Part shown: in pieces, positions 31,821-34,691 of the stretch | How the letters are laid out: each line of letters opens with the position of its first letter | Numbering within the stretch: position 1 is the stretch's first letter | Origin: Sphingomonas sp. EC-HK361 | Lineage (GTDB): Bacteria > Pseudomonadota > Alphaproteobacteria > Sphingomonadales > Sphingomonadaceae | DNA length: 64,000 nt | Direction: 5' to 3' | Assembly (NCBI RefSeq): GCF_902498785.1 | Contig: NZ_LR701494.1 | Location: 679,021 to 743,020 of the forward strand | The notes under the pieces: generated by a model | Told to the model about the DNA's origin: nothing | What the model saw: only the letters and a program-made list of their open reading frames with translations | Databases searched by the model: none | Translations under genes and position numbers: made by a program

Positions 31821-32195
31821 TCAAAGACCGCTCGCGTCGCCCAGTTCGAACATGCGATCGACCTCCAGAACCAGATCGCGCAGGTGGAACGGCTTCGACA
31901 GGACGCGCGCCTGCGGCATTGCCTTTCCCGCCTTCAGGGTGACAGCTGCAAAGCCGGTGATGAACATCACCCGCAGGTCGGGGGCGATCTCGCCCGCCTT
32001 CTGCGCAAGCTCGATTCCGTCCATCTCGGGCATCACGATATCGGTGAGCAACAGATCGAAATGCTCGGTTTCGAGCAGCGGAATCGCGGCAGTGCCGCGA
32101 TCGACCGCGCTGACCGCATAGCCCGACCGTTCCAGCGCGCGCGTCAGATACTCGCGCATGATCTGGTCGTCCTCGGCCAGCAAAATCCTGATCAT
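31821..32195 (-). CDS. cpdR: CpdR-like single-domain response regulator
   Basis: A 124-residue stand-alone receiver domain. D9/D10 in LLAEDD bind metal, D52 in LLLTDIVMPEMDG is the phosphorylated residue, and VLSKPFHLRDLVLEVDRM holds the conserved lysine. The whole sequence closely follows Caulobacter CpdR, including MFITGFAAVTL. In Caulobacter the unphosphorylated protein delivers substrates to ClpXP; clpX and clpP lie at 43-45 kb here. ATG 32195 gives the family start MIRILLAEDD; a longer frame to 32291 is not supported. It is divergent from the N-formylglutamate amidohydrolase. Confidence 0.9.
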   Translation of the reverse strand: MIRILLAEDDQIMREYLTRALERSGYAVSAVDRGTAAIPLLETEHFDLLLTDIVMPEMDGIELAQKAGEIAPDLRVMFITGFAAVTLKAGKAMPQARVLSKPFHLRDLVLEVDRMFELGDASGL

Positions 32196-32294
32196 TCCAA
32201 TCCCCGCACGCTCACGCGAGAATCTATGCGCGAAGCCCTTAAGATTTTCCAGCACGCACCCGCGCGATTGCGACGGATCGATGCGTTCCATAGG

Positions 32295-33152
32295 ATGGCG
32301 ACCGTGAGCATGCGCACGCCGTCATTCGACCTTCACGGTCCCTGCCAGCCGGAAAGCCCGGTCGTGCTGTCCGTGCCGCATGCGGGCCGCGACTATCCGA
32401 TGGCCCTGCGCGCCGCGATCCGCGTTCCGCTAGAGGCGCTGGCCCCGCTGGAGGACCGGCATGTCGATGCGCTGGCGCATGCCGCTCGCGGCGACCATAC
32501 CACGATCGTCCAGCGGCTGCCCCGAGCCTGGATCGATCTCAACCGCGCAGAGCATGAGCGCGACCCGGCGATCGATTCGGGGGCGGACCGCCGACGCCAA
32601 TCCGCGCCGTCGCTCAAGCTGCGCAGCGGGCTTGGTCTCGTGCCACGGCGCACGCCCGGAGCCGGCGACATCTGGCGAGGCAAGCTGAGCAGCGACGAGG
32701 TGGTCGCGCGGATCGAATGCGATCACCGCCCCTATCACGCCGCGCTCGGCGACCTCCTCGACGCGGCGCGCGCGCGGTTCGGCATCGCTATCCTGCTCGA
32801 CATCCATTCGATGCCGCCACTCGCCAGCGGGGCGCGGATCGTACTGGGCGACCGCTTCGGCAAAAGCGCCGGCGCGCGCTTCGTCTACCGGCTGGAGGCG
32901 GAAGCGCGCGCCCACCGCATCCCGTGCGCGCTCAACACGCCCTATGCCGGTGGCCACATCCTCGAACGCCACGCCCGCACACAGGACAATATCCACGCGG
33001 TGCAGCTGGAAATCGACCGGACGCTCTATCTCGATCCGCGGATGGATGGTCCCGGGCCCGGCTTTGCCGGCACCGCCGCGCTGCTCGCCCGGATGATCGC
33101 GGCGCTGGCCGACGAGGCCGAGGGTACGCCCTTCGCCACCGCAGCGGAATAG
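32295..33152 (+). CDS. N-formylglutamate amidohydrolase family protein
   Basis: A 285-residue protein of the FGase family, related to HutG-type deformylases. VVLSVPHAGRDYP, the WIDLNRAEHERDP segment and ILLDIHSMPP carry the expected His/Asp/Glu positions for a zinc-dependent amidohydrolase, and NTPYAGGHILERHARTQDNIHAVQLEIDRTLY is characteristic. The substrate is not proven, and no hut genes are nearby. The start is uncertain: ATG at 32226, 32295 and 32310 are in frame; 32295 is taken. The gene stands divergent to cpdR. Confidence 0.85.
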   Translation: MATVSMRTPSFDLHGPCQPESPVVLSVPHAGRDYPMALRAAIRVPLEALAPLEDRHVDALAHAARGDHTTIVQRLPRAWIDLNRAEHERDPAIDSGADRRRQSAPSLKLRSGLGLVPRRTPGAGDIWRGKLSSDEVVARIECDHRPYHAALGDLLDAARARFGIAILLDIHSMPPLASGARIVLGDRFGKSAGARFVYRLEAEARAHRIPCALNTPYAGGHILERHARTQDNIHAVQLEIDRTLYLDPRMDGPGPGFAGTAALLARMIAALADEAEGTPFATAAE

Positions 33153-33164
33153 CCGCGGCGTTCG

Positions 33165-33277
33165 ATAAAAAACCGCCCCGGATGCAAGCATCCGAGGCGG
33201 CCAAGGTTCAGGGAGGAGACACATCCGAAGATGTGTCATACGGCGCCGCGAAAGGGGGGGACACGCCACCGTATGCT
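33165..33277 (-). ncRNA. Candidate small RNA with anti-Shine-Dalgarno motif
   Basis: Transcription predicted from about 33277 on the minus strand would give an RNA of about 110 bases. Its 5' hairpin has CATACGG/CCGTATG arms around a loop with seven C. A second perfect hairpin, GACACATC-TTCG-GATGTGTC, is followed by single-stranded CTCCTCCC (33218-33211), complementary to Shine-Dalgarno GGGAGGAG. A strong intrinsic terminator ends it. It could instead be the 3' UTR of the cytochrome b561 gene (stop at 33358), or both. No reading frame with a ribosome binding site is seen. I do not recognise it as a known family. Confidence 0.6.
33167..33201 (-). terminator. Intrinsic terminator of the candidate sRNA / cytochrome b561 3' UTR
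   Basis: On the minus strand CCGCC-T-CGGATGC, a TT loop and GCATCCG-G-GGCGG are followed by TTTTTT. The stem is 12 base pairs with one mismatch. Confidence 0.93.
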
Positions 33278-33281
33278 TTCG

Positions 33282-33309
33282 AATATAGGCGCATGATCAG
33301 GGCGTTCAA
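33282..33309 (-). promoter_or_regulatory. Promoter of the candidate small RNA
   Basis: TTGAAC (-35, 33309-33304) and TATATT (-10, 33287-33282) are separated by 16 bases; both are preceded by C, matching the alphaproteobacterial form CTTGA...CTATAT. It lies 50 bases downstream of the cytochrome b561 stop, so it would drive an independent transcript. Confidence 0.65.
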
Positions 33310-33357
33310 GCCCATCTGATCAACGATTTTGTCGCAATCTGTCGCAACCGGATTCGA

Positions 33358-33906
33358 TCAGTGACGCGCGGCCGAGGGCAGCATGCGCGCAAGCACGCGG
33401 TCGCGCAGGAGGAAATGATGCCGCAGCGCAGCGGCGACATGAATGACGACGAGCCCCGCCATCAGGAAGCCGAGCACCTCATGCGCCTCGTGGCTGAAGC
33501 CCGCGGTGCCAGCCGAAACCGGCAGATAGGGGATATCGAACAGCCCGAACCAGGTCAGCGGATAGCGCTTCGGCCCCGAACTCATCGCCCAGCCGGTCAG
33601 CGGCATGATGAACAGCAGCGCGTAGAGCGCCCAATGCGCCGCGTGCGCCGCACCCCGCTCCCACCCGGCGACGTTCGCCGGCAGCGTGGGCGGACGGTGT
33701 GCGAGCCGCCACAGAATCCGCCCCGCGGTCAGCACGAGCACGGTGATGCCGACCGCCTTGTGGATCCCGATCGATCCCTTCCATCCCGCCAGCAGCGATT
33801 CATGGAAAAGGCCGATCACGAGATTGAGGATCACCATTGCTGCGATGGCCCAGTGGAACCAGATCGCGACGATCGAATAGCGTTCGTCGCGGGGCAAGGT
33901 GGCCAT
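33358..33906 (-). CDS. Cytochrome b561 family protein
   Basis: A 182-residue four-helix diheme membrane cytochrome. Histidines in the helices FHWAIAAMVILNLVIGLFHE, GIHKAVGITVLVL, AAHAAHWALYALLFIMPLTGWAMSS and HEVLGFLMAGLVVIHVAAALRHH fit heme ligation. It probably moves electrons between quinol and a periplasmic partner. The start at 33906 fits the family; the longer frame to 34341 is antisense to the SapC gene. It lies 20 bases downstream of that gene. Confidence 0.9.
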   Translation of the reverse strand: MATLPRDERYSIVAIWFHWAIAAMVILNLVIGLFHESLLAGWKGSIGIHKAVGITVLVLTAGRILWRLAHRPPTLPANVAGWERGAAHAAHWALYALLFIMPLTGWAMSSGPKRYPLTWFGLFDIPYLPVSAGTAGFSHEAHEVLGFLMAGLVVIHVAAALRHHFLLRDRVLARMLPSAARH

Positions 33907-33926: not shown

Positions 33927-34691
33927 TTACAGCGTGAGCTGCGGCTGCGGCATCTTGCCCAGTTTCACCTGCTTGGCAAAGAGTTCGCGCATGAGCGACA
34001 GCGAGAACAGGTGTGCATAGAGCAGCGGCAGCATGCCCGACTGGGTCATCTTGCGCAGCTGATCGCCGCGCAGGTTCGTCAGCTTCTCTTCGTTCACCAT
34101 CTGGAAGCCGCGGTAGATGAACGGCTGCTCGACGCCGTCCTGCTGGATCGAGACTTCGCCGTCCATCAGCAGCTCCAGCTCCTTCAGCTCGTTCATGAAC
34201 TGCTGAGTGCGGGCACCGGCCTGCTCGAAGCTTTCGTTGAAGGCGAGGATGTTCTTGGTCAGATCGGTCGGCTGCCCATCGGCGAACAGCGCGTCGCCGT
34301 CGTCGAACGCGCCGATCGAATCCGAGGTGGGATCGAAGCACAGCGACAGCTCTTCCGCGTCGGGGCGAAGCCGGGCGAGCATATAGGGGTAACGGCGCAC
34401 ATAGGCGGGGACGTAGACGTTGTCGTCGATCAGCTTGCCTTCGTCGTCGAGGAAGACGTTGACGCCCTCGTTCAGGCCCATCAGCGCGATCGGAATCGCG
34501 TCGTCACCGATCGAGAACACGATCGGCAGATACCGCTGCGCCAGCGGGAACTCGTCGATCGTCACCGGCACCGCGTGGGTGGTCGCGAGGAACGGCGCGC
34601 GATCCTGCTGACGCACCTTGTAATTGGCGTGGGTTTCGCTCGAAAGCGGCTCGAGGCCGTTGTAGAAAAGCGGAAGCGGCGCACTGGCCAT
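33927..34691 (-). CDS. SapC family protein
   Basis: A 254-residue cytoplasmic-looking protein with LPLFYNGLEPLSSETHANYKV at the start and FIYRGFQMVNEEKLTNLRGDQLRKM near the end, matching the SapC family first named from S-layer operons and common in sphingomonads. Function is not established. Shine-Dalgarno GGAGAG stands five bases before the ATG. It is the first of a likely two-gene unit with the cytochrome b561 gene. Confidence 0.85.
   Translation of the reverse strand: MASAPLPLFYNGLEPLSSETHANYKVRQQDRAPFLATTHAVPVTIDEFPLAQRYLPIVFSIGDDAIPIALMGLNEGVNVFLDDEGKLIDDNVYVPAYVRRYPYMLARLRPDAEELSLCFDPTSDSIGAFDDGDALFADGQPTDLTKNILAFNESFEQAGARTQQFMNELKELELLMDGEVSIQQDGVEQPFIYRGFQMVNEEKLTNLRGDQLRKMTQSGMLPLLYAHLFSLSLMRELFAKQVKLGKMPQPQLTL

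Follow-up and report, generated by a model that had tools for sequence, protein, structure and literature searches.

The question raised by this locus is whether a short segment between two genes of Sphingomonas sp. EC-HK361 encodes a small RNA (sRNA) of its own and, if so, whether that RNA belongs to a named family. The segment lies in the 64,000-nucleotide stretch of DNA that was analysed, hereafter the window. A sequence-only reading had proposed a small-RNA gene on the minus strand, with a consensus-like promoter, two hairpins, an exposed anti-Shine-Dalgarno (anti-SD) segment and a terminator, and had assigned it to no named family. The relevant features are as follows:

31821 to 32291, minus strand: response-regulator (RR) receiver gene, beyond FGase
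32274 to 33152, plus strand: predicted reading frame of FGase (N-formylglutamate amidohydrolase, PF05013, E 1.4e-58), convergent with the sRNA
33167 to 33276, minus strand: predicted sRNA of about 110 nt, with a putative 5' end set by the -10 box and by where hairpin 1 starts
UCCUCCCUGAACCUUGG, minus strand: stretch of the predicted sRNA
33167 to 33202, minus strand: predicted intrinsic terminator, stem 33202-33171 and six U at 33172-33167
33203 to 33217, minus strand: UCCUCCCUGAACCUU, unpaired in the MFE fold, predicted anti-SD seed and linker
33218 to 33237, minus strand: hairpin 2 of the MFE fold, 8 bp, GACACAUC-UUCG-GAUGUGUC
33238 to 33274, minus strand: hairpin 1 of the MFE fold, with the C-rich loop UCCCCCCCUUU at 33261-33251
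33282 to 33287, minus strand: -10-like hexamer TATATT, spacer of 16 from TTGAAC
33304 to 33309, minus strand: promoter-like -35 hexamer TTGAAC
33358 to 33786, minus strand: predicted reading frame of cytochrome b561 (PF01292), upstream neighbour between SapC and the sRNA
33927 to 34691, minus strand: SapC gene, upstream, in the same orientation as the sRNA

The promoter named in the sequence-only reading, TTGAAC-16-TATATT (33309-33282, minus strand), is the sole promoter-like site in a 1-kb search region, where shuffled sequences lead one to expect 0.1, and a terminator-like site occurs in the same region on the minus strand only. An imperfect dyad, TGATCA-GAT-GGGC...GCCC-TGATCA, is visible by eye around the -35 hexamer (33294-33322, minus strand). 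The MFE fold consists of three hairpins with an energy of -55.9 kcal/mol, compared with -36.55 kcal/mol (sd 3.65) for shuffled sequences (z -5.3), none of the 200 shuffles being as stable. The C7-loop hairpin and the UUCG hairpin described earlier are both recovered, as hairpin 1 and hairpin 2 (33237-33218), respectively, and the C-rich loop of the former is a possible second pairing site. The anti-SD segment is unpaired, as had been stated, except that the first C of CUCCUCCC belongs to the closing pair of hairpin 2, which leaves UCCUCCCUGAACCUU as the unpaired stretch. The terminator and its six U are likewise present, but its stem, given as 12 bp, amounts to 14 pairs when the G-U pairs at the foot are included.

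Relatives were collected by a pattern scan of genome contigs with TCTCCTCCCTGAACNTTGGC, which returned at least 120 loci. The 114 that carry the RNA represent Sphingomonas, Sphingobium, Stakelama, Erythrobacter and Qipengyuania, among other genera, and nearly all are from named Sphingomonadales. A first filter on the 120 listed loci retained 111 and put 9 aside, of which three (L018, L056, L080) proved to be the RNA and six (L006, L015, L046, L079, L087, L097) chance matches elsewhere. Among the matches listed, 114 of the 120 score at least 83 bits against the covariance model, 48 of these being themselves rows of the model and one (L056) being clipped by the end of its locus; the model gives no match to five of the chance loci and 21.3 bits (E 0.0099) for L015. 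Later counts use 113 loci, with the clipped L056 excluded, and the promoter count uses 112, one locus being too near its end. The alignment and model, R1, contain 49 rows, namely 48 of the 113 loci, no pair of which is more than 90% alike by a simple ratio, and the window. On the window, the model matches 33282-33167 with 105.8 bits, the window itself being among the 49 model rows.

Compensatory changes occur in 21 of the 28 predicted pairs of these 49 sequences. The number of double-change cells is 195, against 54.7 in shuffles, and 95.8% of cells are paired, compared with 83.0% in shuffles and 33.7-52.1% when the partners are slid. Changes on both sides are seen in all 9 pairs of hairpin 1 (helices 1 and 2), in 4 of the 6 modelled pairs of hairpin 2 and in 8 of the 13 pairs of the terminator, whose helix is 99.2% paired. 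Because the scan motif forces TCTCCTCCCTGAAC, seed conservation was judged solely from 40 loci found with the model. These were picked by hand at roughly regular intervals from the listed ranking beneath its first 30 entries, a set from which weaker, unlisted matches are absent. The seed and loop counts were read from the aligned rows; by regular expression, L350 matched on the wrong strand and L360 and L363 gave no match. In these 40 relatives, 97.5% of cells are paired, 22 of the 28 pairs show both-side changes and double-change cells number 219, compared with 55.8 for shuffles, in an alignment that is fitted to the model and leans towards it. A covariance search across Sphingomonadales, a check set beforehand, gave matches at E <= 0.01 in 240 of the 297 genomes searched, leaving 57 with no model match under the strict filters used; across the class, 76 of 289 genomes matched at the same threshold, in both cases with rough E-values and strict filters.

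Upstream of the RNA, TTGAA is present in 101 of 112 loci, compared with 3.4% of random windows from the same loci, and clusters about 86-90 nt before the seed. A promoter-like pair with at least 9 of 12 matches is found in 48 of the 112, compared with 0.18% of random windows. This enrichment of both elements suggests a promoter belonging to the sRNA itself. The earlier proposal of a small-RNA gene finds support by comparison, through conserved hairpins, a promoter-like sequence of its own and a conserved, predicted-unpaired anti-SD segment; the covarying pairs and the CUCCCUGAACCU seed, present in 36 of the 40 model-found relatives, agree with the conservation of hairpins and C-rich seed that had been anticipated. 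As judged from these alignments, the arrangement in the window is more than a chance one, being conserved and covarying among sphingomonads.

The gene neighbourhood is conserved as well. FGase lies convergent and downstream in 95 of the 113 sphingomonad loci, 93 of them within 300 bp, and SapC lies upstream in 96 (54 under 300 bp and a further 42 under 3 kb). A response-regulator gene is present in 84 of the 113 loci, and FGase was found in 38 of the 40 model-found loci. From the class search, 30 loci were examined, and for 4 of them the genome had been sampled in the order search too. The remaining 26 (L161-L186) are taken to lie outside the sphingomonad clade because the order search did not include their genomes and they have no SapC neighbour (0/26). 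FGase adjoins the RNA in 20 of these 26, 5 of which also carry the same response regulator, and of the 26, 20 were scanned with Rfam, all 20 passing the RF00519 cut-off. Among weaker matches within the order (27 genomes), FGase is present in 16 of 30 loci and is not found within the flanks in 14, and the sequences grade from the canonical GGGCGUUUCCUCCCUAAACUUGGGCC to the form seen in the window. A tRNA search covering 60 of the loci placed tRNA-Glu(CTC) directly downstream of the RNA in Sphingobium L008, L017, L023, L026, L031, L034 and L039. In the two of these that were inspected for it, L008 and L017, FGase was not found in the locus, with SapC still upstream.

A search of the whole window at the Rfam gathering threshold returned two tRNAs only, RF00519 being absent. 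In a small-region search, RF00519 (suhB, alias mmgR) was the best family, with 25.1 bits against a cut-off of 41 and E 0.0034, and its alignment spans hairpin 2, CUCCUCCCU and the terminator. Eight Rfam matches to the region have E up to 10, a list that excludes one overlapping lower-scoring match to a shared-clan family; Spot 42, ar7, anti-hemB and the other named matches all fall below their cut-offs. According to the available part of PMC12559287, alpha-r8 RNAs occur in all Alphaproteobacteria except Rickettsiales, with a single FGase-adjacent copy in most species. Of the alpha-r8 traits, the window sRNA has the Rho-independent 3' terminator and the adjacency to FGase, ending 14 bp beyond the stop codon of this oppositely directed gene. 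In place of the unpaired UUUCCUCCCU after a weak hairpin, it carries UCUCCUCCCU (9/10) after a stable 8-bp hairpin. Because both the published 10-mer and the Rfam cut-off are missed, it is filed as a diverged alpha-r8 variant rather than a strict member. The view that the sequence matches no named family nevertheless finds no support, since position, architecture and core sequence are all those of alpha-r8 (MmgR/SisA, RF00519). We therefore consider it likely that the window sRNA is the sphingomonad positional ortholog of alpha-r8, i.e. a stand-alone Hfq-type sRNA gene. The case for the gene, its structure, its conservation, its homology and its synteny is a comparative one. The 2016 alpha-r8 family paper (Lagares, Roux, Valverde) may already list sphingomonad members. 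In the open-access literature, apart from the likeliest papers of 2016, 2017 and 2018, no description of the sphingomonad variant was found, and the available portions of the literature on Zymomonas sRNAs yielded no link to it.

The likeness to MmgR, the alpha-r8 RNA of Sinorhizobium meliloti, includes the FGase neighbour and the order of elements, from a hairpin through an unpaired CCUCCCU to a Rho-independent terminator. Outside the order, too, model R1 picks up members of RF00519 in the class. The two RNAs differ in that MmgR has the seed UUUCCUCCCU and a reported length of 77 nt, whereas the window sRNA has UCUCCUCCCU, a stable hairpin 2, a conserved linker GAACCUUGGCC and a C-rich 5' hairpin, a predicted length of about 110 nt and a score below the Rfam cut-off. 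Among the 40 model-found relatives, UUUCCUCCCU occurs once, CUCCCU in 39 and CUCCCUGAACCUUGGCC in 31. The rarity of UUUCCUCCCU beside the frequency of CUCCCUGAACCU and CUCCCUGAACCUUGGCC indicates that the conserved unpaired element has shifted in the 3' direction. The hairpin-1 loop is C-rich in all 113 motif loci, taking the form of four or more C followed by UUUC in 105, CCCCUCAU in 6 and CCCUCAU in 2; in the model-found loci, CCCUCAU is present in 28 of 40. The replacement of CCCCCCUUUCG by CCCUCAU in this loop was noted in L018, L047, L060, L085 and many of L324-L363, and CCCCUCAUGGGC, which is similar to CCCUCAU, was seen at hairpin 2 of L161-L164. In L165, an alpha-r8 relative from the class search, the loop of the 5' hairpin contains 11 consecutive C, and loops of this C-rich kind may therefore extend beyond the sphingomonads.

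Exposed CU-rich anti-SD stretches also characterise the alpha-r14 and CcsR RNAs. The same likeness to the window sRNA holds for AbcR/alpha-r15, as described in the available text of PMC7143759. None of AbcR, alpha-r14 and CcsR is named among the eight Rfam matches (E up to 10) to the region, and alpha-r8 is preferred over other anti-SD sRNAs because of the FGase linkage. SisA of Caulobacter crescentus, with its kin SisB-D, shares an anti-SD seed and a terminator with the window sRNA, SisA itself being FGase-linked (PMC12559287, in the part available). The window sRNA differs from it in its clade-specific seed and 5' hairpin and in that no perfect-complement sponge site was found in the 41 genomes searched. 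By analogy, SisA would be the best guide to the mechanism of the window sRNA.

RF00519 also covers a second kind of sphingomonad RNA. Each of 15 sphingomonad genomes has one or more RF00519 matches that pass the cut-off, and the copy at the FGase/SapC locus, recognised by matching positions, lies below the cut-off in 14 of them and above it in one (a Sphingobium MAG, 44.3 bits). The 25 other copies examined are of a short type whose core, GCCUUUCAGGCAUCCUCUC, is absent from the window sRNA, and none of the 25 has FGase, SapC or RR within its flanks. Model R1 matched none of 8 such short SuhB-type loci. One genome, G698, has seven RF00519 copies in addition to the one at the locus, and six of the seven pass the cut-off. 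The available part of PMC6563040 describes SuhB of Sphingopyxis granuli TFA as a 61-nt, Hfq-dependent RNA that represses thnR, acting at a 5' UTR, in carbon catabolite repression. It resembles the window sRNA in coming from the same order and, by name, in belonging to the same Rfam family. Most likely, TFA SuhB is of the short type with AUCCUCUCC and has no FGase link.

Other readings of the locus have to be weighed against a diverged alpha-r8 RNA. The window sRNA could be the same RNA as TFA SuhB, which would then lie next to FGase and carry CUCCCUGAACC; both RNAs are sphingomonad and RF00519 covers both types. This identity is quite improbable, since the two kinds of RF00519 match coexist in the 15 tested genomes, the 25 short copies have their own core and none of the locus neighbours, model R1 passes over all 8 short-type loci, and the 61-nt length suits the short type. 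Instead of being a gene of its own, the RNA might also belong to SapC or b561 upstream, as part of the 3' UTR or as the terminator, a reading that draws on the same-strand position of SapC in 96 of 113 loci and that is very unlikely in view of the TTGAA element, enriched and held at its distance of about 86-90 nt from the seed (101 of 112 loci against 3.4%). Moreover, b561 sits between SapC and the RNA in the window, SapC-RNA distances vary across loci, and the 26 further class-search loci keep FGase in 20 and SapC in none.

The 14-bp gap to the FGase stop codon could suggest an element acting in cis at the 3' end of the FGase mRNA, or else the arrangement could be fortuitous. Either is barely credible given the base-pair covariation in both the 49-sequence and the 40-relative sets, the retention of the RNA in Sphingobium L008 and L017, where FGase is absent from the locus, and the sole terminator-like site being on the minus strand. 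Finally, the main partner of the window sRNA could be another sRNA or sponge instead of mRNAs, as CrfA is for SisA; Caulobacter SisA is under the control of this sponge (PMC12559287, in the part available). Searches with TTCAGGGAGGAG found it in 38 of 41 genomes, 32 of which have a single occurrence. Of 30 TTCAGGGAGGAG loci examined, 28 are the sRNA gene itself, with no second conserved perfect-complement site in the 41 genomes. A sponge as main partner is thus unlikely, by an argument that applies to perfect and not to imperfect sponges.

For a diverged alpha-r8 RNA, Hfq-assisted anti-SD repression is the most likely mode of action, by analogy with its relatives. The sRNA would be transcribed from its own housekeeping-type promoter and ended by the intrinsic terminator, leaving UCCUCCCUGAACCUU exposed between hairpin 2 and the terminator. 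Because of the homology to SisA/MmgR, this segment is expected to pair, probably with the help of Hfq, with ribosome-binding sites of the GGGAGGA type, and the pairing would block translation of a set of mRNAs. As in Caulobacter and Sinorhizobium, the likeliest targets would be metabolic genes, including those for nutrient use and carbon storage. In the available part of PMC12559287, SisA represses a broad set of mRNAs under nutrient-rich conditions through pairing of its anti-SD seed, and CrfA sequesters it on carbon starvation. MmgR limits polyhydroxybutyrate (PHB) storage, according to the accessible sections of PMC7143759 and PMC8401924.

The target search with the seed, proposed by the sequence-only reading, gave no conserved target among exact complements in 121 genomes. 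The seed complement TTCAGGGAGGA-N4-10-ATG had 19 matches in 17 of the 121 genomes, and the backward control was commoner, occurring in most. The frames after the seed-complement sites encode mostly unrelated proteins, several being too short for genes, and no conserved target appears among them; a small exported-looking protein recurs after such sites in L188 and L191. The backward control, GTA-N4-10-AGGAGGGACTT, is found in most of the 121 genomes of the G001-centred genus search, usually once, and this recurrence indicates that it marks some conserved sequence. For the complement of loop 1, GAAAGGGGGGA-N0-25-ATG, the 33 matches are spread over 23 of 61 genomes, compared with 1 match for its backward control. 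Among the 30 loop-1-complement loci examined (L206-L235), the sRNA gene accounts for at least 8 distinct sites, and the remaining sites precede unrelated or very short frames, with no recurring target gene. The excess over the backward control persists when the sites within the sRNA gene are set aside, and one site common to two genomes (L220, L224) stands before no convincing gene. The lack of exact-complement targets is compatible with a short seed that tolerates wobble pairs, though it is no proof.

It is tentatively possible, though on balance we doubt it, that alpha-r8 has become a two-site RNA in sphingomonads, with its seed changed from UUUCCUCCCU to CUCCCUGAACCUUGG and its C-rich loop in the forms CCCCCCUUUCG and CCCCUCAUGG, the multi-copy short SuhB types having taken over part of the old role. 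If this is true, the FGase-linked type and the short SuhB type would govern different regulons. The only characterised sphingomonad relative met in the literature searched is SuhB of Sphingopyxis, and the diverged sphingomonad form tends to be missed by the standard RNA library (Rfam). Since the cut-off caught the locus copy in 1 of 15 genomes and other copies in all 15, Rfam annotation may steer experiments to the wrong RNA. An alignment, a model and a seed are now at hand for the direct testing of the sphingomonad alpha-r8 RNA. The finding would extend a class-wide carbon and nutrient regulator to the sphingomonads, a group important for pollutant degradation.
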